A DNA stretch of 47,307 nt from Collimonas antrihumi. GTDB taxonomy: Bacteria; Pseudomonadota; Gammaproteobacteria; Burkholderiales; Burkholderiaceae_D. Below the pieces are notes generated by a model. It searched no databases, had not been told where the DNA came from, and saw nothing but the letters and a program-made list of their open reading frames with translations. Below are positions 5,786 to 26,455 of this stretch, piece by piece. Location: assembly GCF_018304965.1 (NCBI RefSeq), contig NZ_JAGQED010000032.1, forward strand, positions 1-47,307, given 5' to 3'. The number at the start of each line of letters is the position of its first letter. The stretch's first letter is position 1. The translations under genes were made by a program, and so were the position numbers.

Positions 5786-7942
5786 ATGCGCCTAAGAAAT
5801 AGTCTGTTATGTGTACTGTTGGCAATTTCCACCGCCGCCTATGCGTTGGAAGCCGGCCCACCTCCGGCCTTGGCGCCGTTGCAGCAGCAAGCGCAAGCGG
5901 CTCACCTGAGCGCGCAATTCCTGAGTCGTTTCCACTACAAACCGGTGCCGCTGGACGACGCCTTGTCCGCGAAGATCATCAATCGCTATATCAAGCTGCT
6001 CGATCCGGAAAAATTCTTTTTCATACAAGCGGATATCGATCAATTTACCGCTCAGCACAATAAGCTCGACGACGCAATTTATCGCGAAGACCTGCAAATT
6101 CCTTTCGCCATTTTCAACCTGTATGAACAGCGCATAGTGGAACGCCTGACCTATGCGCGTGAATTGCTCAAACAAGGTTTCGACTTTAGCCAGAAAGAAG
6201 ATTATTCCTTCGTGCGCGATAAGGAGCCTTGGCCGAAAACCACAGCAGAAAGCCGCGAACTGTGGCGCAAGCGTGTCAAGAACGACTGGCTGCGCCTGAA
6301 ACTGGCCGGCAAGAAAGACCAGGCGATTCGCGAAACGCTCAGCAAGCGTTACGAAAATTCCCTGACGCGCGCCTACAAGTACAAGAGCGACGACGTGTTC
6401 CAGATTTTCATGAACGCTTATGCGACATCGATTGAGCCGCATACCGATTATCTGGGTACGACTGCTGCGGCAGATTTCGATATCTCCATGAAGCTTTCCC
6501 TGGTCGGCATCGGTGCTGTGCTCCAGGAGCGGGATGAATACACGACCATACGCGAACTGGTAGCAGGCGGTCCGGCGCAATTGTCCGGCAAGCTTGCCGT
6601 CGGCGACCGGATTGTCGGCGTGGCGCAAGGCGAAAAAGGCGTCATGACAGATGTGGTCGGCACGCGGATTGACGATGTCGTCAAACAGATTCGTGGCGCC
6701 AAGGATACGGTAGTGCGCCTGGACATATTGCCGGCCGATGCCGGTCCGGATGGCAAGCACAAACTGATCAACCTGGTGCGTAACAAGATCAGCCTGGAAC
6801 AACAGGCGGCAAAAAAATCCATCATCACCACCAAGAACGGCGACGCCACCCGCAAAGTGGGCGTGATTACCTTGCCAGCCTTCTATGAAGATTTTGATGC
6901 GCGACGCAAGGGCGACAAGAATTTCAGGAGCGCCAGCCGCGATGTGGCGGCACTCCTGGCCGATCTGAAAAAGGAAAAGGTCGACAGCGTCCTGATCGAT
7001 TTGCGCAATAACGGCGGCGGTTCGCTGACTGAGGCGGTCGACCTGACCGGCCTGTTTGTCGGCAAGGGACCGATCGTGCAGCAACGCAACGCGCGCGGCG
7101 ACGTCAACGTCGAAGCCGACGACCGTCCGACTCCTGCCTGGACCGGCCCGCTGGCAGTACTGATCAATCGCGGCTCGGCCTCTGCCTCGGAAATTTTTGC
7201 GGCGGCAATCCAGGACTATGGACGCGGCATCATTATCGGCGAAGGCAGTTTTGGCAAAGGCACCGTGCAGACCATGGTCAATCTTGACGAGCTGACGCAT
7301 AACGATAAGCCGAAGTTCGGTGAACTGAAGATGACCATCGCGCAATTTTTCCGGATCAACGGCGGCACCACCCAGTTGCGCGGCGTAACGCCGGACATAA
7401 GCTTGCCCGGCTTCTCGGATCCCGAAGCCTTTGGCGAGTCGAGCTACGATAACGCCCTGCCGTGGTCGCAAGTCAAGGCGGCGGATTATGTGCCTTACGG
7501 CGATCTGAAAAGCCTGGTGCCGCAGATCCAGAGCCGGCATGATGCGCGCGTGGAAAAAAACAAGGACTTCCAGCGTTTCCTGGAAGATGTGAGCGAGTTG
7601 AATGTGCAACGCAAGAAGCGCGTCATCTCTCTCAACGAAGCTGACAGGCGTGCCGAGATGGCACAGCAGGAAGCGCGTCTCAAGGCACGCGGCAAAGCTG
7701 AGGATAGCAGTGCTAAAGACAAGGACGATGCTGCTGTCGACGCCGAGTTGAATCGCCAGGACGACGGTCTGCAAGCCAACGAACGCAGCCTGAGTGCCGA
7801 CATCGCGGCGGAAAAAGCGCTGAAGAATGCGAAGGACGTACTGCTGAACGAAGCGGCGCAGATACTTGGCGATGAATCGGATCTGCTCAAGTCCAATGTC
7901 AAATTCGCGGTGCAGCAACCAGCTGCCGCCGTGCAGAAATAA
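5786..7942 (+). CDS. prc: Carboxy-terminal processing (tail-specific) periplasmic protease Prc
   Basis: A 718-residue S41A protease, slightly longer than E. coli Prc (682). An N-terminal Sec signal peptide (MRLRNSLLCVLLAISTAAYA) sends it to the periplasm. Then come the N-terminal helical domain (~40-230), a PDZ domain (~240-330, with LVGIGAVLQERDEYTTIRELVAGGPA and GKLAVGDRIVGVA), the S41 protease core and a C-terminal DUF3340-type helical tail rich in Lys, Glu and Ala. The Ser-Lys dyad is Ser466 in NRGSASASEIF and Lys491 in GEGSFGKGTVQ, 25 residues apart as in E. coli (S452/K477). Prc degrades or trims periplasmic proteins from non-polar C-termini, for example FtsI and peptidoglycan hydrolases. 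It is a single gene, convergent with the IclR gene. Confidence 0.96.
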   Translation: MRLRNSLLCVLLAISTAAYALEAGPPPALAPLQQQAQAAHLSAQFLSRFHYKPVPLDDALSAKIINRYIKLLDPEKFFFIQADIDQFTAQHNKLDDAIYREDLQIPFAIFNLYEQRIVERLTYARELLKQGFDFSQKEDYSFVRDKEPWPKTTAESRELWRKRVKNDWLRLKLAGKKDQAIRETLSKRYENSLTRAYKYKSDDVFQIFMNAYATSIEPHTDYLGTTAAADFDISMKLSLVGIGAVLQERDEYTTIRELVAGGPAQLSGKLAVGDRIVGVAQGEKGVMTDVVGTRIDDVVKQIRGAKDTVVRLDILPADAGPDGKHKLINLVRNKISLEQQAAKKSIITTKNGDATRKVGVITLPAFYEDFDARRKGDKNFRSASRDVAALLADLKKEKVDSVLIDLRNNGGGSLTEAVDLTGLFVGKGPIVQQRNARGDVNVEADDRPTPAWTGPLAVLINRGSASASEIFAAAIQDYGRGIIIGEGSFGKGTVQTMVNLDELTHNDKPKFGELKMTIAQFFRINGGTTQLRGVTPDISLPGFSDPEAFGESSYDNALPWSQVKAADYVPYGDLKSLVPQIQSRHDARVEKNKDFQRFLEDVSELNVQRKKRVISLNEADRRAEMAQQEARLKARGKAEDSSAKDKDDAAVDAELNRQDDGLQANERSLSADIAAEKALKNAKDVLLNEAAQILGDESDLLKSNVKFAVQQPAAAVQK

Positions 7943-19405: not shown

Positions 19406-20992
19406 TCAGGTGATAGGCGCCGGATTGAACAGCGTCAACGCGTTGTGCAATTTGTGATGCTCCGCCCAAGTCTTCTTGCGGCCGCTGGCGACATCCAGCA
19501 TGAGATGGAACATCTCCCAGCCGACGTCTTCGATGCTGGCTTCGCCGCTGGCAATGCGGCCGGCGTTGATATCCATCAGATCGTGCCAGCGCCGCGCCAG
19601 GTCGTTTCGCGTCGCCACTTTGATAACCGGTACTGCAGCCAAACCGTAGGGAGTGCCACGGCCGGTGGTGAATATGTGCAGGTTCATGCCAGCCGCCAGT
19701 TGCAAGGTGCCGCAGACAAAATCACTGGCCGGCGTGGCCGCATACATCAAACCCTTTTGCTTGAGCTTGTCGCCAGGTGAAAGCACGCCGGAGATGACGC
19801 TGCTGCCGGATTTGACGATCGAGCCCATGGCTTTTTCGACGATATTGGCGAGGCCGCCCTTTTTATTTCCGGGCGTGGTGTTGGCGCTGCGGTCGACGCC
19901 ACCGCGGGTGAGATAGTCGTCGTACCAGGCCATCTCGCGGATCATGGCTTGCGCCACCTCGGCATTGGCGGCGCGCGCGGTCAGCTGGTCGATACCGTCG
20001 CGCACTTCGGTGGTTTCGGAAAACATCACCGTGGCGCCGGCGCGCACCAGCAAATCGCTGGCAAAGCCGACTGCCGGATTGGCGGTGACGCCGGAGAAGG
20101 CATCGCTGCCGCCGCACTGGACGCCGACGATCAGATCCGATGCCGGGCAAGAGACACGGCGGCGCTTATTCAATTCGCTCAATTGCTCTTCTGCGGTAGC
20201 CATGATCGATGTGATCATCGACTCGAAGCCGACGTGCTCCGCATCTTGCAAGCACACTACGCGCAAGCCGTCTTCCTTGCCGCCGGTGCTTTGAATCGGA
20301 ATCGAGCCTTGCGGGAACAACCGGCCCGGTTGCAATTTCTCGCAACCCAAACTAACCACCATCGCCTGGCCGCCGAAGTTGGGATTCATGCTGATGTTAC
20401 GCAAGGTGCGGATCGGAATCTCGGCGCCTGGCGCGTCAATCGCCACGCCACAGCCGTAAGTATGTTCAAGGCCGATGACATCGTCGACGTGCGGGTAGCG
20501 GGGCAGCAGTTCTGCCTTGATGCGTTTGACCGCATGTTCCACCACGCCGGATACACATTGCACGGTGGTGCTGATCGCCAGGATATTGCGGGTGCCGACC
20601 GTGCCGTCGGCATTGCGGTAACCTTCGAAGGTATACCCGTCCAACGGCGTTGCCGCTGCCGGAACCTTGGTAGCAATCGGCAAATTGGTCAGCTCCCGTG
20701 CCGGTGGCATCCGCACCAGCGATTCTTCGATCCAGCTTCCTTGCGCAATCGGCCGTTGCGCATATCCGATCACCACGCCGTAGCGCACGATGGATTCGCC
20801 TTCCGCCAGATCGCGCAGTGCCACTTTATGGCCCTGCGGTACTTTGTCGCGCAGCGCCAGCCCGCACGGGAAGATCGTGCCGGCCGGCAAACCGCCGTCA
20901 TTGGCGACAATCGCAACGTTATCCTGCTCCTGCATGCGGATGTACAATGGCGTATTGTTGTCTTTATCGACAACCGGTGCTGCCTTGGTCAT
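19406..20992 (-). CDS. garD: Galactarate dehydratase
   Basis: A 528-residue UxaA/GarD-family dehydratase, close to E. coli GarD (523). The N-terminal SAF domain (~15-100) is followed by the catalytic part with [64 protein letters not shown] and the C-terminal [11 protein letters not shown], matching GarD rather than altronate dehydratase. It removes water from D-galactarate (meso) to give 5-dehydro-4-deoxy-D-glucarate, using Fe2+. The start ATG 20992 has GGAG seven bases before it and overlaps the permease stop by 4 bp, so the two are one operon. Control is probably by the GntR/FadR-type protein encoded divergently at 22710. Confidence 0.95.
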
Positions 20993-22410
20993 GATTCCAC
21001 TCCAGATAATTTCTTGTATGGCTGTCCTGCATCGTCAAGCGGCTTGAGTTCGACGCGCTTGATGTCTTTCACAATCACGAGGTAGCTGATCACAGCTAGC
21101 AGGGCATTGGCGCCGACATACACCAGCGCCCACTCGAAGGAGCCGGTTTCCTTGATGATATAGCCGATCACGATCGGTGCGGTGATGCCGGCGATATTGC
21201 CGAACATGTTAAACAGGCTACCGGTAAGGCCGATGATCTCTTTCGGTGAAGTATCAGCCACAACGGCCCAGCCCAACGCGCCGACGCCCTTGCCGAAGAA
21301 AGCCAGCGCCATGATGCCGACCACCATCCATTGGGTATCGACGTAATTGCACAAGATCATGGTGGTCGACAACAGCAAGCCGGCGACGATAGGAATCTTG
21401 CGGGCCCAGGTCAGCGAGAAGCCGCGTTTGATCAGCCGGTCCGAAATCATGCCGCCCAATACGCCGCCGAGAAAGCCGCAAATCGCCGGCAATGATGCCA
21501 CGATGCCCGCTTTCAGAATCGACATGCCGCGTTCCTGCACCAGGTAGATCGGGAACCAGGTCAGGAAGAAGTAGGTAATCGTATTGATGCAGTATTGACC
21601 GAGATATACACCGGCCAGCATGCGATTGCTGAGCAATTGCTTGAGATAACCCAGCTTGACGCCGCGGTTGATCTTGCTGGCCGCGCTACCCTTTGCAGCT
21701 GCGCTCTTGCCGCCACCCAGGCCCTGGTCCATGTCGACCAGGCCGCCGCCGTCGCGGATATGCGCCAGCTCCGCCGAAGTCATGCCAGGATGATCCTTCG
21801 GGCTATGCATCATCCGCATCCAGATCATGCTCAGCACCATGCCCGCAGCGCCCATCACGACAAACGTTTGCGACCAGCCGTAGGCATGCGTGATCCAGGC
21901 CATCAAGGGAGCGAACAACACGGTGGCAAAATATTGCGCCGAATTGAAAATTGCCGAAGCGGTGCCGCGTTCAGTTGTCGGAAACCAGGCGGCGACGATA
22001 CGGCCGTTGGCGGGGAAGGAAGGCGCTTCGGCCAGACCGACCATGAAGCGCAACATGAATAGCGCCGGCACTGCCCACAGCGCACCGAGAAAATGCACTC
22101 CGCCTTGCATCAGGGTGAATAGCGACCAGATGAAGATGCTGGCGGCGTACACGCGCTTCGAGCCGTAGCGGTCTAGCAGCCAGCCACCCGGCAATTGCCC
22201 CAGCACGTAAGCCCAGCTGAAGGCCGAAAAGATGAACCCCATGGTGACAGCGTCGAAGCCCAGTTCGCTCTTCATTGCGGTACCTGCAATGGATAGGATG
22301 GCGCGATCGGCATAATTGAAAGTGGTCACCATGAACAGCATGAACAAAATCGTGTAGCGCAGCTTGCCACGTTGAGCCGATGCCGGCCCAGTCGTTTTGT
22401 TGATATTCAC
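20989..22410 (-). CDS. MFS transporter, D-galactarate/D-glucarate permease type (GudP/GarP-like)
   Basis: A 473-residue inner-membrane carrier of the anion:cation symporter (ACS) family with 12 hydrophobic segments and a charged central loop (~200-250). Family features: [23 protein letters not shown] in segment 1, [58 protein letters not shown] and [27 protein letters not shown]. It imports a sugar diacid with protons. The start is GTG 22410, six bases after AGGAG. It is translationally coupled to garD by an ATGA overlap, which argues that galactarate is a substrate. A 20-bp operator candidate lies ~212 bp upstream of its start. Confidence 0.92.
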
Positions 22411-22621: not shown

Positions 22622-22641
22622 GTTATCAGTCATCCTACAAC
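22622..22641 (-). promoter_or_regulatory. Candidate operator A for the galactarate regulator
   Basis: On the minus strand this reads GTTGTAGGATGACTGATAAC. The same 20 bases, with one mismatch, occur upstream of the 5-dehydro-4-deoxyglucarate dehydratase gene at 23687-23706. The ends GTTrT...AyAAC are partly symmetric. Here it lies between the divergent permease/garD operon and the regulator gene. A TATAAT box at 22653-22658 for the regulator lies 12 bp away, so a bound protein would cover that promoter's -35 region. Confidence 0.75.
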
Positions 22642-22709
22642 TTGAATCGTAGTATAATCACCGAAAAATAATTTAGCAACTAGATTTACTTTTCCCGCGG
22701 CCCCATCCA

Positions 22710-23468
22710 ATGAATACACCGCTCAATGCTCTGCCCGCTCCAAGCGCCCCGCCGAAAAAACATCGCAACCTGGCGCAGAGCGTGGTCGCCAATATTGCCG
22801 AAAGCATTCGCAGCGGCATCAGCAAACCCGGGGACAAGCTGCCGACCGAATCCGAACTGATGCGCACGCAGGGCGTCAGTCGCACCGTGATACGCGAGGC
22901 GATTTCGCATCTGCAAGCCTCGGGACTGGTAGAGACGCGGCACGGCATCGGCACCTTTGTGTTGGCGGCAAGCAACTCCAGCAATTTCGACATCGATCCG
23001 GAAACCGTGATCACCATGCGCGATATCCTGGCCATCCTGGAATTGCGCATCAGCCTCGAAGCGGAAGCCGCCGGACTGGCGGCCGCACGGCGCAACGACG
23101 AGCAGCTAGCGCAAATGCGGATGGCGCTGGATGCCTTTCAGAAAAGCGCCAACGAGCATGGCGACTCGGTTGCGGCCGATGTGCAGTTCCATTTGCACAT
23201 CGCACAAGCCACCGGCAACCGCTATTTTGTGGATATCCTGACCCACCTTGGCACCACCATCATTCCGCGCACCCGGATCAACTCCGCCAAACTGGCGCAT
23301 GACGATCCGGCGGCCTATCTGGACCGCGTACACCGTGAGCATGAAGATATCTACAATGCCATCGTGCGCCAGGATCCGGAGACGGCGCGGGCAGCAATGC
23401 GCACACATCTGAGTAATAGCCGCGAGCGTTTGCGCAAGGTGCAGGACAGCATGGCGTTGCAGTCGTAA
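22710..23468 (+). CDS. FadR/GntR family transcriptional regulator (FCD domain)
   Basis: A 252-residue regulator. The N-terminal winged helix (~20-90) shows NLAQSVVANIAESIRSGISKPGDKLPTESELMRTQGVSRTVIREAISHLQASGLVETRHGIGTFV, the GntR signature. The C-terminal FCD effector domain has the metal/ligand-type residues D-x-x-x-H in VAADVQFHLHIAQATGN and H in VHREHEDIYNAI and MRTHL. Proteins of this type repress sugar-acid genes until a pathway intermediate binds. It sits between the garD/permease operon (divergent) and the dehydratase gene (same strand), with a repeated 20-bp sequence at both promoters, so it is the likely pathway regulator and autoregulated. TATAAT at 22653. No strong ribosome site is seen before ATG 22710. 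Confidence 0.93.
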   Translation: MNTPLNALPAPSAPPKKHRNLAQSVVANIAESIRSGISKPGDKLPTESELMRTQGVSRTVIREAISHLQASGLVETRHGIGTFVLAASNSSNFDIDPETVITMRDILAILELRISLEAEAAGLAAARRNDEQLAQMRMALDAFQKSANEHGDSVAADVQFHLHIAQATGNRYFVDILTHLGTTIIPRTRINSAKLAHDDPAAYLDRVHREHEDIYNAIVRQDPETARAAMRTHLSNSRERLRKVQDSMALQS

Positions 23469-23667
23469 GCGGATGACAGGCTGACAACGAACCGACTGCA
23501 ATCAAACAAAATCGAATAATCAAGCTGCCGGCATGTCCGGCAACGCCACAAACTCCGAAAAAAAACCTCCCGGCGACGCACTGCCTGCCGCCCGTTTTGC
23601 CACGGATCTTCCCCGTTTTTAATACCCAGCTTCGCCCTCCTGAATAAAACACATAGCATTTTCCGGC
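23469..23667. other. Non-coding stretch after the regulator gene
   Basis: The gap between the regulator stop and the dehydratase start is ~320 bp. The first ~200 bp hold no recognised gene or hairpin terminator. The last ~120 bp hold the promoter/operator described at 23668-23706. Confidence 0.4.
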
Positions 23668-23706
23668 TTGCATACTGCAAATCTTTGTTGTACGATGACT
23701 GATAAC
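23668..23706 (+). promoter_or_regulatory. Promoter and candidate operator B of the dehydratase gene
   Basis: TTGCAT (23668-23673) and TACGAT (23691-23696), 17 bp apart, make a plausible sigma-70 promoter. The sequence GTTGTACGATGACTGATAAC (23687-23706) covers the -10 box and is 19/20 identical to operator A read on the other strand. Binding here would block transcription, consistent with repression by the FadR-type protein encoded upstream. Confidence 0.7.
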
Positions 23707-23788: not shown

Positions 23789-24700
23789 ATGAATCCTCAA
23801 GAACTCAAACAAGTACTTTCCTCCGGCTTGCTGTCTTTCCCGATTACCGATTTCGATGTGCAGGGCAATTTCCGCCCGAGCACCTACGCGGAACGACTTG
23901 AATGGCTGGCTCCCTACGGCGCGAGCGCCTTGTTTGTCGCAGGCGGCACAGGTGAGTTCTTTTCGCTCACGACCTCCGAATATTCCGACGTAGTACGGCT
24001 GGCGGTAGAAACCTGCCATGGTAAAGTACCGATCCTGGCCGGCGCCGGCGGCCCGACCCGCACCGCCATCGCGTCCGCACAAGAAGCCGAACGCCTGGGC
24101 GCGCAAGGCATCCTGCTGATGCCGCATTACCTGACCGAAGCATCGCAAGACGGTTTGGTAGCCCACGTCGAAGCCATCTGCAATTCAGTCAAATTCGGCG
24201 TCGTCGTGTACAACCGCGGCATCTGCCGCCTGAATGCGGATTCGATGGAGTTGCTGGCCGCACGCTGCCCTAACCTGATCGGCTTCAAGGACGGCATCGG
24301 CGACATCGAACTGATGGTATCGATACGCCGCCGCCTCGGCGATCGCCTGACTTATTTGGGCGGCTTGCCGACTGCAGAATTGTTTGCCGCACCGTACAAG
24401 GCACTCGGCGTACCGGTTTATTCGTCAGCCGTATTCAATTTCCTGCCGAAGATGGCGATCGATTTTTATACTGCAGTCAAGAACGATGACCACGCCACCA
24501 CAGAACGTTTGATAGATAGCTTCTTCCTGCCTTACCTGGCAATCCGCAACAAGAAAGCCGGTTATGCGGTCAGCATCGTCAAAGCCGGTGCAACCATTGT
24601 CGGTCATGATGGTGGTCCGGTGCGTACGCCGTTGATTGATCTGAATGCGGAAGAATGTGAACAATTGAAGGCATTGATTTTGGCGCAAGGGGCGCAGTAA
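23789..24700 (+). CDS. kdgD: 5-dehydro-4-deoxyglucarate dehydratase
   Basis: A 303-residue TIM-barrel enzyme of the DHDPS/NAL family with the glucarate-pathway signature: [15 protein letters not shown] at the N-terminus, [14 protein letters not shown] for substrate binding, Tyr141 in VVVYNRGIC and the Schiff-base Lys167 in IGFKDGIGD. It converts 5-dehydro-4-deoxy-D-glucarate to 2,5-dioxopentanoate (2-oxoglutarate semialdehyde) with loss of water and CO2. That is the step after GarD and before the dehydrogenase encoded next. The protein is cytoplasmic. The ribosome site is weak (GAGACC before ATG 23789). Expression probably responds to operator B. Confidence 0.95.
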
Positions 24701-24742
24701 TTAACAAACAGGCAACGGCGTTTACTCCGTGGCCCGTTAAAA

Positions 24743-24794
24743 GGGGTCAGAGTAATTTACGACGATACGACTGACGTAAAAAAACTCTGACCCC
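24743..24794. repeat. REP/MITE-like inverted repeat
   Basis: GGGGTCAGAGT (24743-24753) and ACTCTGACCCC (24784-24794) are a perfect 11-bp inverted repeat. An inner pair TTACG/CGTAA gives a ~50-base hairpin. Elements with GGGGTCAGAGT ends are common dispersed repeats in beta-proteobacterial genomes and may be moved by REP-associated transposases. It lies between the dehydratase and dehydrogenase genes and could end or stabilise their shared transcript. Confidence 0.75.
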
Positions 24795-24877
24795 ATTTAA
24801 CTACGTTTGCGGCGGGGCGAAGTAACTGCTTTTGCGGTGACGCAAAAAATCGAACATTTGTATATCGAGGAAAATAA

Positions 24878-26455
24878 ATGAACATCACTGGTGAAATGCT
24901 TATCGGCCAATCCAGCGTACGCGGCGCCGAAGGCACGCTACGCGCAATCAATCCCGCCACCAATGAAAAGATCGGCCCCGATTTCCGCGTCGGCGGAGCC
25001 GCAGAGGTAGACCGCGCCTGCACCCTGGCGCAACAAGCTTTCGACATCTATCGCGAAACCACCCCGCAACAACGCGCAGAATTCCTCGAAGAAATCGCCA
25101 ACGGCATCCTGGCGCTCGGACCAGCGTTAATCGAACGCGCAGCGCAAGAGTCCGGCCTGCCAACCGCCCGCCTGGAAGGCGAACGCGGCCGCACCGTAGG
25201 CCAGTTACGCCTGTTCGCCACAGTAGTACGCGCCGGAAACCACCTAAGCGCCACCCTCGATTCAGCACTACCCGACCGCACCCCGCCACGCTCCGATCTA
25301 CGCCTGCGCAAGATCGCCATCGGCCCGGTCGCCGTATTTGGCGCCAGCAATTTCCCGCTAGCATTCTCGGTAGCCGGCGGCGACACCGCCGCGGCATTCG
25401 CCGCCGGCTGCCCGGTGGTAGTCAAGACGCACAACGCCCATCCAGGAACCTCGGAACTGGTCGGCCGCGTAATTCAACAGGCAGTCGCTACCTGCAAAAT
25501 GCCTGAAGGCGTGTTCTCCCTGATCATCGGCAACGGCAACGAAGTCGGCCACGCATTAGTCAGCCACCCAGCCATCAAAGCAGTCGGCTTTACCGGCTCG
25601 CGTCAAGGCGGCCTGGCGCTGATGCGCGCAGCAGCACAACGACGCGAACCGATTCCCGTGTACGCCGAAATGAGCAGTATCAATCCCATGTTCCTGCTGC
25701 CGCATGCATTAGCGGCACGGGCATCGCAAATCGGCAGCGCTTTCGTCGATTCGCTGACCATGGGCGTAGGACAGTTCTGCACCAATCCGGGTCTGGTAAT
25801 CGGCTTGGCAGGGGAACACCTGTCGCAGTTTCAAGAAGCCGCATCGCATGCACTACAAGCCAAGGCCGCCGGCACCATGCTCACACCTGGCATCCACAGC
25901 GCCTATGTCACCGGCGTCGAACGCATGAGCGCAGTTGCCGGCGTCACCACTCTCGGCCAAGGTCTGCCGGCAGGTGCCCCATGCGCCGCCCAGGCTACAT
26001 TGTTTGCCACCGATGCCGCAACCTTCCTGGCGACCGGACAGCTGGAAGATGAAATCTTCGGCCCCAGCTCATTGATTGTCGCCTGCCAGAACGAAGAAGA
26101 AATGCGCGCCGTAGCCGAACACCTGGCCGGCCAGCTGACCGCCACGCTGCAGCTCGATAATGAAGATCACGCACTGGCCAGGAAACTGCTGCCAACACTG
26201 GAACGCAAAGCCGGCCGCATCCTGGTGAACGGTTATCCAACCGGCGTTGAAGTGTCTTACGCGATGGTGCATGGCGGCCCGTTCCCCGCAACTTCGGACA
26301 GCCGCAGCACCTCAGTCGGCGCCAGCGCCATCGATCGCTTCCTGCGGCCGGTGTGCTATCAGGACTTTCCCGCAGATTTACTGCCGACAGCCGTGCAAGA
26401 CGGTAACCCCCTTGGATTGACGCGACTGATGGATGGGAACTTGATCAAGCTCTAA
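24878..26455 (+). CDS. 2-oxoglutarate semialdehyde dehydrogenase (NADP+-type aldehyde dehydrogenase)
   Basis: A 525-residue aldehyde dehydrogenase of the KGSADH type III group. Catalytic Cys301 is in VGVGQFCTNPG, general-base Glu264 in YAEMSSINP, oxyanion Asn158 in GASNFPLAFS, and cofactor Lys183 in VVKTHNAHP. The N-terminus TLRAINPATNEKIGPDF and the long C-terminal part (HGGPFPATSDSRSTSVG) fit this subgroup. It oxidises 2,5-dioxopentanoate to 2-oxoglutarate, feeding the TCA cycle and completing the galactarate pathway. The start ATG 24878 follows GAGG at 7 bp. The first half uses many A-ending codons (GTA, CTA, TTA) compared with its neighbours. A strong terminator follows. Confidence 0.93.
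   Translation: MNITGEMLIGQSSVRGAEGTLRAINPATNEKIGPDFRVGGAAEVDRACTLAQQAFDIYRETTPQQRAEFLEEIANGILALGPALIERAAQESGLPTARLEGERGRTVGQLRLFATVVRAGNHLSATLDSALPDRTPPRSDLRLRKIAIGPVAVFGASNFPLAFSVAGGDTAAAFAAGCPVVVKTHNAHPGTSELVGRVIQQAVATCKMPEGVFSLIIGNGNEVGHALVSHPAIKAVGFTGSRQGGLALMRAAAQRREPIPVYAEMSSINPMFLLPHALAARASQIGSAFVDSLTMGVGQFCTNPGLVIGLAGEHLSQFQEAASHALQAKAAGTMLTPGIHSAYVTGVERMSAVAGVTTLGQGLPAGAPCAAQATLFATDAATFLATGQLEDEIFGPSSLIVACQNEEEMRAVAEHLAGQLTATLQLDNEDHALARKLLPTLERKAGRILVNGYPTGVEVSYAMVHGGPFPATSDSRSTSVGASAIDRFLRPVCYQDFPADLLPTAVQDGNPLGLTRLMDGNLIKL

Follow-up and report, generated by a model that had tools for sequence, protein, structure and literature searches.

According to the section of PMC5507952 that deals with it, GguR is a GntR-family regulator of the genes for galactarate and glucarate use in Halomonas, and of those for Udh, Gli, and Gci. 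A 26-bp DNA containing the GguR site of Polaromonas sp. JS666 is printed in a passage of PMC8376909, which credits it to Bouvier et al. (2019). The oxidative uronate pathway and its lactonases are treated in an excerpt of PMC6353982. The corresponding part of PMC12288454 presents E. coli DgoR as a GntR/FadR-family repressor of a sugar-acid operon, with two inverted repeats overlapping the promoter. Searches of the open-licence PMC text, made with the operator letters and with Collimonas plus pathway terms, returned no paper on the Collimonas regulon described here among the matches listed; for the operator letters, the only match among those listed was in work on an E. coli small RNA.

We analyzed a 47,307-nucleotide stretch of the Collimonas antrihumi genome (hereafter the window), in which two nearly identical 20-mers flank a gene for a GntR/FCD regulator. 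The best explanation of the observations as a whole, to which we assign a probability of roughly 0.88, is that the 20-mer is the operator of the regulator encoded between the two copies, and that this protein would be a GguR-type repressor of hexaric-acid catabolism.

Results

Genes of the locus

The regulator gene (22710–23468, plus strand) encodes a GguR-like protein of 252 amino acids. It belongs to the GntR/FCD (FadR-type) proteins, with scores of 73.2 bits for PF00392 (cut-off 27) and 95.5 bits for PF07729 (cut-off 24.3), and its closest named relatives, among the best 80 of 107, are from Collimonas and share 97–98% identity with it. To its left, on the minus strand, is an operon whose first gene encodes an MFS permease of the galactonate-transporter type (20989–22410; TIGR00893 above cut-off) and overlaps by 4 bp with garD, the gene for galactarate dehydratase (19406–20992; TIGR03248 above cut-off). 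To its right, on the plus strand, are kdgD, encoding 5-dehydro-4-deoxyglucarate dehydratase (23789–24700; TIGR03249 above cut-off), and an aldehyde dehydrogenase gene (24878–26455; PF00171). None of the 25 NCBIfam families compared reached its cut-off with the aldehyde dehydrogenase; judged from the pathway, it is probably a 2-oxoglutarate semialdehyde dehydrogenase. The neighborhood of a GguR regulon, with garD, a permease gene, kdgD, and an aldehyde dehydrogenase gene beside the regulator, is therefore present in the window, and it was found in two Comamonadaceae relatives as well. Between kdgD and the aldehyde dehydrogenase gene, inspection by eye revealed an inverted repeat (ggggtcagagt ... 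actctgacccc, 24737–24800) that looks like a small repeat element.

Two 20-mers flank the regulator gene

Candidate operator copy 1, GTTGTAGGATGACTGATAAC, is located at 22622–22641 on the minus strand, and copy 2, GTTGTACGATGACTGATAAC, at 23687–23706 on the plus strand, where it covers the −10 box predicted for kdgD. The first-pass annotation had described the two as identical at 19 of 20 positions and had placed copy 1 between the permease-garD operon and the FadR-type gene; coordinates and strands were exact, and a single base differs between the copies. It had also considered such a pair unlikely by chance, and 100 dinucleotide shuffles of the window yielded no match. When the window was scanned with GTTGTANGATGACTGATAAC, allowing up to 3 mismatches, only copies 1 and 2 matched. 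Comparison of the two intergenic regions with each other gave a best 20-mer match of 19/20, as against 13–16 in 15 mononucleotide shuffles. The operator is an imperfect dyad, in which 5 of 10 pairs are complementary in the Collimonas copy and 8 of 10 in the Duganella form.

In the whole assembly of the same genome (4.72 Mb in 83 contigs), this 20-mer had two perfect matches, which were copies 1 and 2, and two matches with 3 mismatches; there was no further copy within 2 mismatches anywhere in the 4.72 Mb. A genome scan for scattered copies had been set beforehand as a check on the proposal, and in its own genome the 20-mer was not scattered at unrelated genes. One of the matches with 3 mismatches (C11:110789) precedes a second kdgD and looks like a real further target. 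The other (C83:127393) was rejected; it lies inside an ORF on the opposite strand, and its neighbors are unrelated by eye. A scan of this genome with the degenerate sequence GTYRTMNGATRACNNAYRAC at up to 2 mismatches gave 17 matches, 14 of them at exactly 2. Because the reversed control gave 21, the matches with 2 mismatches were taken as noise.

Conservation within Collimonas

An orthologue of the regulator was present in 13 of the 14 other Collimonas genomes searched, the exception being a genome of 1.7 Mb (G001). With position 7 left free, both 20-mers were perfect in 12 of the 13 orthologous loci; at the thirteenth (L009), copy 1 was perfect and copy 2 had four changes. For the footprint alignment we used 14 sequences, the window included. 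All 20 columns of copy 1 were invariant, which ranked it 2 of 281 windows in an alignment with a median 20-bp window identity of 0.72. Copy 2 ranked 1 of 500 windows, with 16 of 20 columns invariant and all of the variation contributed by L009. The base that separates the copies was G in 14/14 copies 1 and C in 14/14 copies 2, the decayed L009 copy included. Because this base is fixed by position, the two copies have been maintained separately.

At the C. silvisoli locus (L098, 8757–9000) there was no kdgD match downstream of the regulator gene, and by eye an aldehyde dehydrogenase-like scrap remains there. The C. silvisoli site, where kdgD was lost, is changed at four positions, positions 6 and 10 among them.

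Conservation beyond the genus

The best 80 of the 107 relatives were used, and the 7 from Collimonas were left out of the matrix test, which was thus performed on 73 loci. A matrix built from 13 Collimonas sites was applied to 300 bp upstream and 600 bp downstream, and 15 bits was taken as the mark. This mark was reached in 28/73 upstream and 46/73 downstream non-Collimonas regions, with 45/73 and 27/73, respectively, falling below it. It was reached in 0/73 reversed upstream regions (highest score 14.6 bits) and in 0/73 coding segments of 300 bp (highest 8.8 bits). In the two Comamonadaceae relatives (58.6% identity), the motif flanks the regulator gene on both sides. Alignment of orthologous promoters, a second check set beforehand, thus found the 20-mer conserved both in Collimonas and beyond it.

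Presence of the downstream site followed the presence of kdgD, which was scored as directly downstream when a kdgD match began 0.6–2 kb after the regulator's start. Among the 80 loci, a plus-strand site of at least 15 bits lay downstream of the regulator in 47/47 with kdgD and in 3/33 without it. The three site-bearing loci without kdgD are the C. silvisoli locus (L098) and two loci that lie near contig ends (L115 and L172).

Some lineages have no recognizable site. The Pandoraea loci missed 15 bits on both sides in 17/17 cases, with a best upstream score of 7.3, and upstream regions below 15 bits were also found in 3/3 Castellaniella and 2/3 Thauera loci. All 17 Pandoraea loci (within L116–L141) carry the 20-mer TACATACGACRACCGATAAG at 67–111 bases upstream of the regulator gene; it is possibly a diverged operator. 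Four plasmid loci were examined: in those of Diaphorobacter and Comamonas the regulator gene was flanked by sites, that of Sphaerotilus had one site, ahead of TRAP genes, and that of Caballeronia (L197) had no match of at least 9 bits near the regulator gene.

Co-occurrence of site and regulator

We scored 245 family genomes for the site, defined as GTTGTAYGATGWCNNAYRAC with at most 1 mismatch, and for the regulator, defined by E ≤ 1e-50. The site was found in 95 genomes and the regulator in 100; both were present in 90, the regulator only in 10, the site only in 5, and neither in 140, leaving 15 discordant genomes. Site and regulator gene clearly occur together across the family. The Fisher value for the association was 1.5e-48, which is not an honest probability because the genomes are related and their independence is overstated.

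Eight of the 10 regulator-only genomes were examined, and each had a degenerate site near the regulator gene, with best scores of 19.7–27.5 bits from a matrix trained on 14 sites that included G035's own. Four of the five site-only genomes were examined (G074, G178, G027, and G105), and none had a pathway link. By eye, the sites in G074 and G178 lie inside transposase-like and transporter-like ORFs, respectively, and the site in G027 is intergenic with no visible link. In G105, which has no orthologue of the regulator, a close match to the site (L177, 2193–2212) precedes a gene that by eye encodes a different GntR-type regulator, which hints that a paralogue recognizes a similar motif. One genome that has the regulator (G008) contained a further one-mismatch match at an unrelated-looking place, among the matches listed.

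The G105 site is what would be expected if another regulator, for example a paralogous GntR/FCD protein, bound these sites and the adjacent regulator gene were merely linked to them. Candidates for such a protein are present, since the C. antrihumi genome has 22 matches to the regulator at E ≤ 0.001, itself included. However, the sites track the adjacent regulator gene across the 245 genomes and adjoin it in several families, Comamonadaceae included, and the best paralogue in the same genome (38% identity), which was the one examined, had no match above 5.3 bits in the surrounding 5.5 kb. We consider binding by another regulator very unlikely. Conservation at orthologous loci and co-occurrence with the regulator across genomes instead support the proposal of the first-pass annotation that the 20-mer is the binding site of the adjacent regulator.

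Position of the sites relative to predicted promoters

The placement of copy 2 over the −10 box of the dehydratase promoter, also put forward in the first-pass annotation, agreed with the predicted promoter. The predicted −35 hexamer of kdgD, TTGCAT (23668–23673, plus strand), is followed after 17 bp by the predicted −10 hexamer TACGAT (23691–23696, plus strand), which is identical with operator positions 5–10. Relatives were compared by means of 43 non-Collimonas kdgD-side sites from the 73 loci, all on the plus strand and scoring at least 13 bits, many of them from closely related Duganella. TTG was located exactly 19 bases before the site in 43/43, and at other positions of the 30 bases it occurred in 3 or fewer. 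Because TTG lies outside the matrix, it is independent of the way in which the sites were selected; its location 19 bases ahead points to TAYGAT, operator positions 5–10, as the −10 box after a 17-bp spacer. The third site in the C. antrihumi genome has the same geometry (TTGCGA-17-TACGAT).

The operator bases A at position 6 and T at position 10 correspond to what we take to be the positions mattering most for sigma-70. Both were fixed at kdgD-side sites, in 33/33 distinct sequences, as compared with 22/32 for A6 and 20/32 for T10 at regulator-side sites (p = 3.6e-4 and 5.6e-5). Because the left half of the operator coincides with the predicted −10 box, promoter occlusion is the likely mechanism at kdgD.

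The predicted promoter of the permease-garD operon (22651–22679, minus strand) consists of TTGCTA (22679–22674), a 17-bp spacer, and TATACT (22656–22651). It scores 9/12, and one such match against a mean of 1.2 in shuffles does not rise above the shuffles. The copies differ in placement: copy 2 covers the predicted −10 of kdgD, and copy 1 lies nine bases beyond the predicted −10 of the permease operon; the latter arrangement recurs at three other loci (L102, L106, and L107). A predicted −10 for the regulator's own promoter, TATAAT (22653–22658, plus strand), is invariant in the 14 Collimonas sequences, and copy 1 lies over the putative −35 region of this promoter. Given this position at both divergent promoters, one dimer on copy 1 would keep both the permease operon and the regulator gene repressed.

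The sign of control is not readable from sequence alone, and the regulator might therefore use these sites to activate the genes. However, the predicted −10 is covered by the site at kdgD and precedes it at the permease operon, and to our knowledge neither placement is usual for an activator. Moreover, DgoR, a related protein of the GntR/FadR type, acts as a repressor, and its repeats overlap its promoter, according to the relevant part of PMC12288454. Activation thus seems to us improbable. The near identity of copies 1 and 2 might also suggest a repeat, duplicated or mobile, without any function in regulation. This is highly improbable: the genome has no other copy within 2 mismatches, the base at which they differ goes with location (G in 14/14 copies 1, C in 14/14 copies 2), the conservation extends to other families, and the footprint already contradicts it.

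Probable further targets of the regulator

The reading of the 20-mer as a binding site in the first-pass annotation held, but the locus is not the full extent of the regulon, as a third site stands at a kdgD-glucarate dehydratase operon elsewhere in the genome. This site, GTTGTACGATGACCGACATC (C11:110789–110808), ends 60 bases before the second kdgD, kdgD2; on L094 it occupies 5790–5809, and kdgD2 starts at 5870. Next after kdgD2 are a gene for glucarate dehydratase (848.6 bits, cut-off 828.7) and then one for an MFS permease. Of the 14 genus genomes that have a close glucarate dehydratase gene, three (G000, G002, and G014) have it at such a site. In the remaining 11, the gene (82–84% identity) lies elsewhere and the scan found no site there, so the case for control of glucarate use by this regulator holds for this sub-lineage only.

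A second, weaker site-like sequence was present 166–168 bp upstream of the third site (L094 5622–5641, on C11; L077 3022–3041; L086 2273–2292). It scored 13.8 bits in C. antrihumi (L094) and 20.8 and 19.9 bits in the two congeners, and the spacing could suit DNA looping.

Seven congeners (G003, G004, G005, G006, G009, G012, and G013) have further sites 4–8 kb from the regulator. Exactly those seven of the 15 genus genomes contain an orthologue (81–100%) of a Udh-type protein that resembles solved uronate dehydrogenases, and the start of the udh gene was within about 250 bp of the extra sites in 7/7 of the congeners having the close orthologue. The other seven regulator-bearing genus genomes have no close Udh orthologue and no site at that place; four of them have a relative with 35–38% identity. 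Some congeners have additional sites ahead of an SMP-30-type gene and of TRAP transporter genes. The C. antrihumi genome itself has no Udh orthologue (best match 31%) and no close SMP-30 relative, its best full-length match being 39% and one partial match of 44% containing an internal stop. The regulon therefore looks like a hexarate core that hexuronate oxidation genes have joined in the genomes that have them.

Two other arrangements were noted in the congeners. A gene for a small DUF4440 protein (L082, 1982–2431), divergent from udh, has a pair of operator-like sites in common with it, and by eye similar small ORFs adjoin the sites at L075, L080, and L084. In five genomes (G006, G007, G008, G010, and G011), a distant Udh-like gene (35–38%) lies about 1.7–2.3 kb from the glucarate dehydratase gene, and no site was found there; together the two genes possibly form a second, separately controlled sugar-acid cluster.

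Discussion

The two sites are conserved, hold a fixed position relative to promoter-like hexamers, and are linked with the genes of the regulator and of the pathway, all of which points to repression by the GguR-type protein encoded between them. From these observations we infer the binding, the sign of control, the transcription starts, and the inducer. In the absence of inducer, a dimer bound to copy 2 would cover the −10 box of kdgD and exclude RNA polymerase. At copy 1, a bound dimer would sit immediately past the permease-garD −10 and cover the −35 region of the divergent regulator promoter; transcription of the permease operon would be blocked early, and the regulator would repress its own gene. 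The third site would place glucarate use under the same control, through the kdgD2-glucarate dehydratase-permease operon. The repressor would then be released when its FCD domain binds a hexarate or an intermediate of the pathway. Co-repression of both arms of the pathway, which the first-pass annotation had also proposed, is what the geometry of the sites suggests.

We lean toward a more specific view of the kdgD promoter, in which promoter and operator form one composite element and the left half-site, TTGTAYGAT, also serves as the −10 box. Across Burkholderiales families, the −35 keeps the same distance from it (43/43 sites). This view also draws on the bases A6 and T10, fixed only at the kdgD side and both altered in C. 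silvisoli, where kdgD is gone. The other positions of the site could then vary and so adjust repression, and the regulon could grow by placement of the element before gained hexuronate genes.

The analysis would give one hexaric-acid regulon in Collimonas its regulator, its operator, and three operons, and would tie the use of galactarate to that of glucarate in this genome. The operator and the predicted −10 box overlap in the same way in many species, which also offers natural variants with which to test how one sequence serves both a sigma factor and a repressor. Biologically, the arrangement is an expected one.

Comparison with known systems

The regulator belongs to the same GntR superfamily as ExuR, UxuR, LldR, and PdhR and has detectable similarity to them; these identities were rejected by the NCBIfam equivalog cut-offs (97.2 bits against 396, 101.1 against 442, 114.7 against 311, and 93.6 against 330, respectively). 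DgoR is likewise of the GntR/FadR family, and its repeats overlap its promoter, as described in the section of PMC12288454 that concerns them. The core of its IR1 as given there is compact, TTGTAGTACAA, whereas the half-sites found here are wider, being TTGTA and TACAA separated by 8 bp in the Duganella form.

The closest correspondence is with GguR, to judge from the passages on Halomonas and Polaromonas cited above, in which a GntR-family regulator adjoins galactarate/glucarate genes as it does here. In reverse complement, 15 of the 17 core bases of the Polaromonas site printed in the PMC8376909 passage align with the operator, and 13 of these 15 match the window site; the two mismatches are at positions 6 and 7, two of the positions at which regulator-side sites differ from one another. 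The same 15 bases of that printed site occur verbatim upstream of the orthologous regulator gene in Janthinobacterium sp. FT58W (L107) and in genome G029 (L020/L090). The 17-base core of the printed site had an exact match in 0/399 genomes of the order, two of its bases being outside the motif and Polaromonas perhaps being unsampled. In contrast to the GguR systems, the Collimonas genome analyzed here combines an MFS permease with garD, has a second, unlinked kdgD-gudD operon, and lacks a Udh orthologue. What sequence shows of this regulator and its operators agrees with GguR, a kind of regulator and site already described; the Collimonas regulon is a well-supported but ordinary case.
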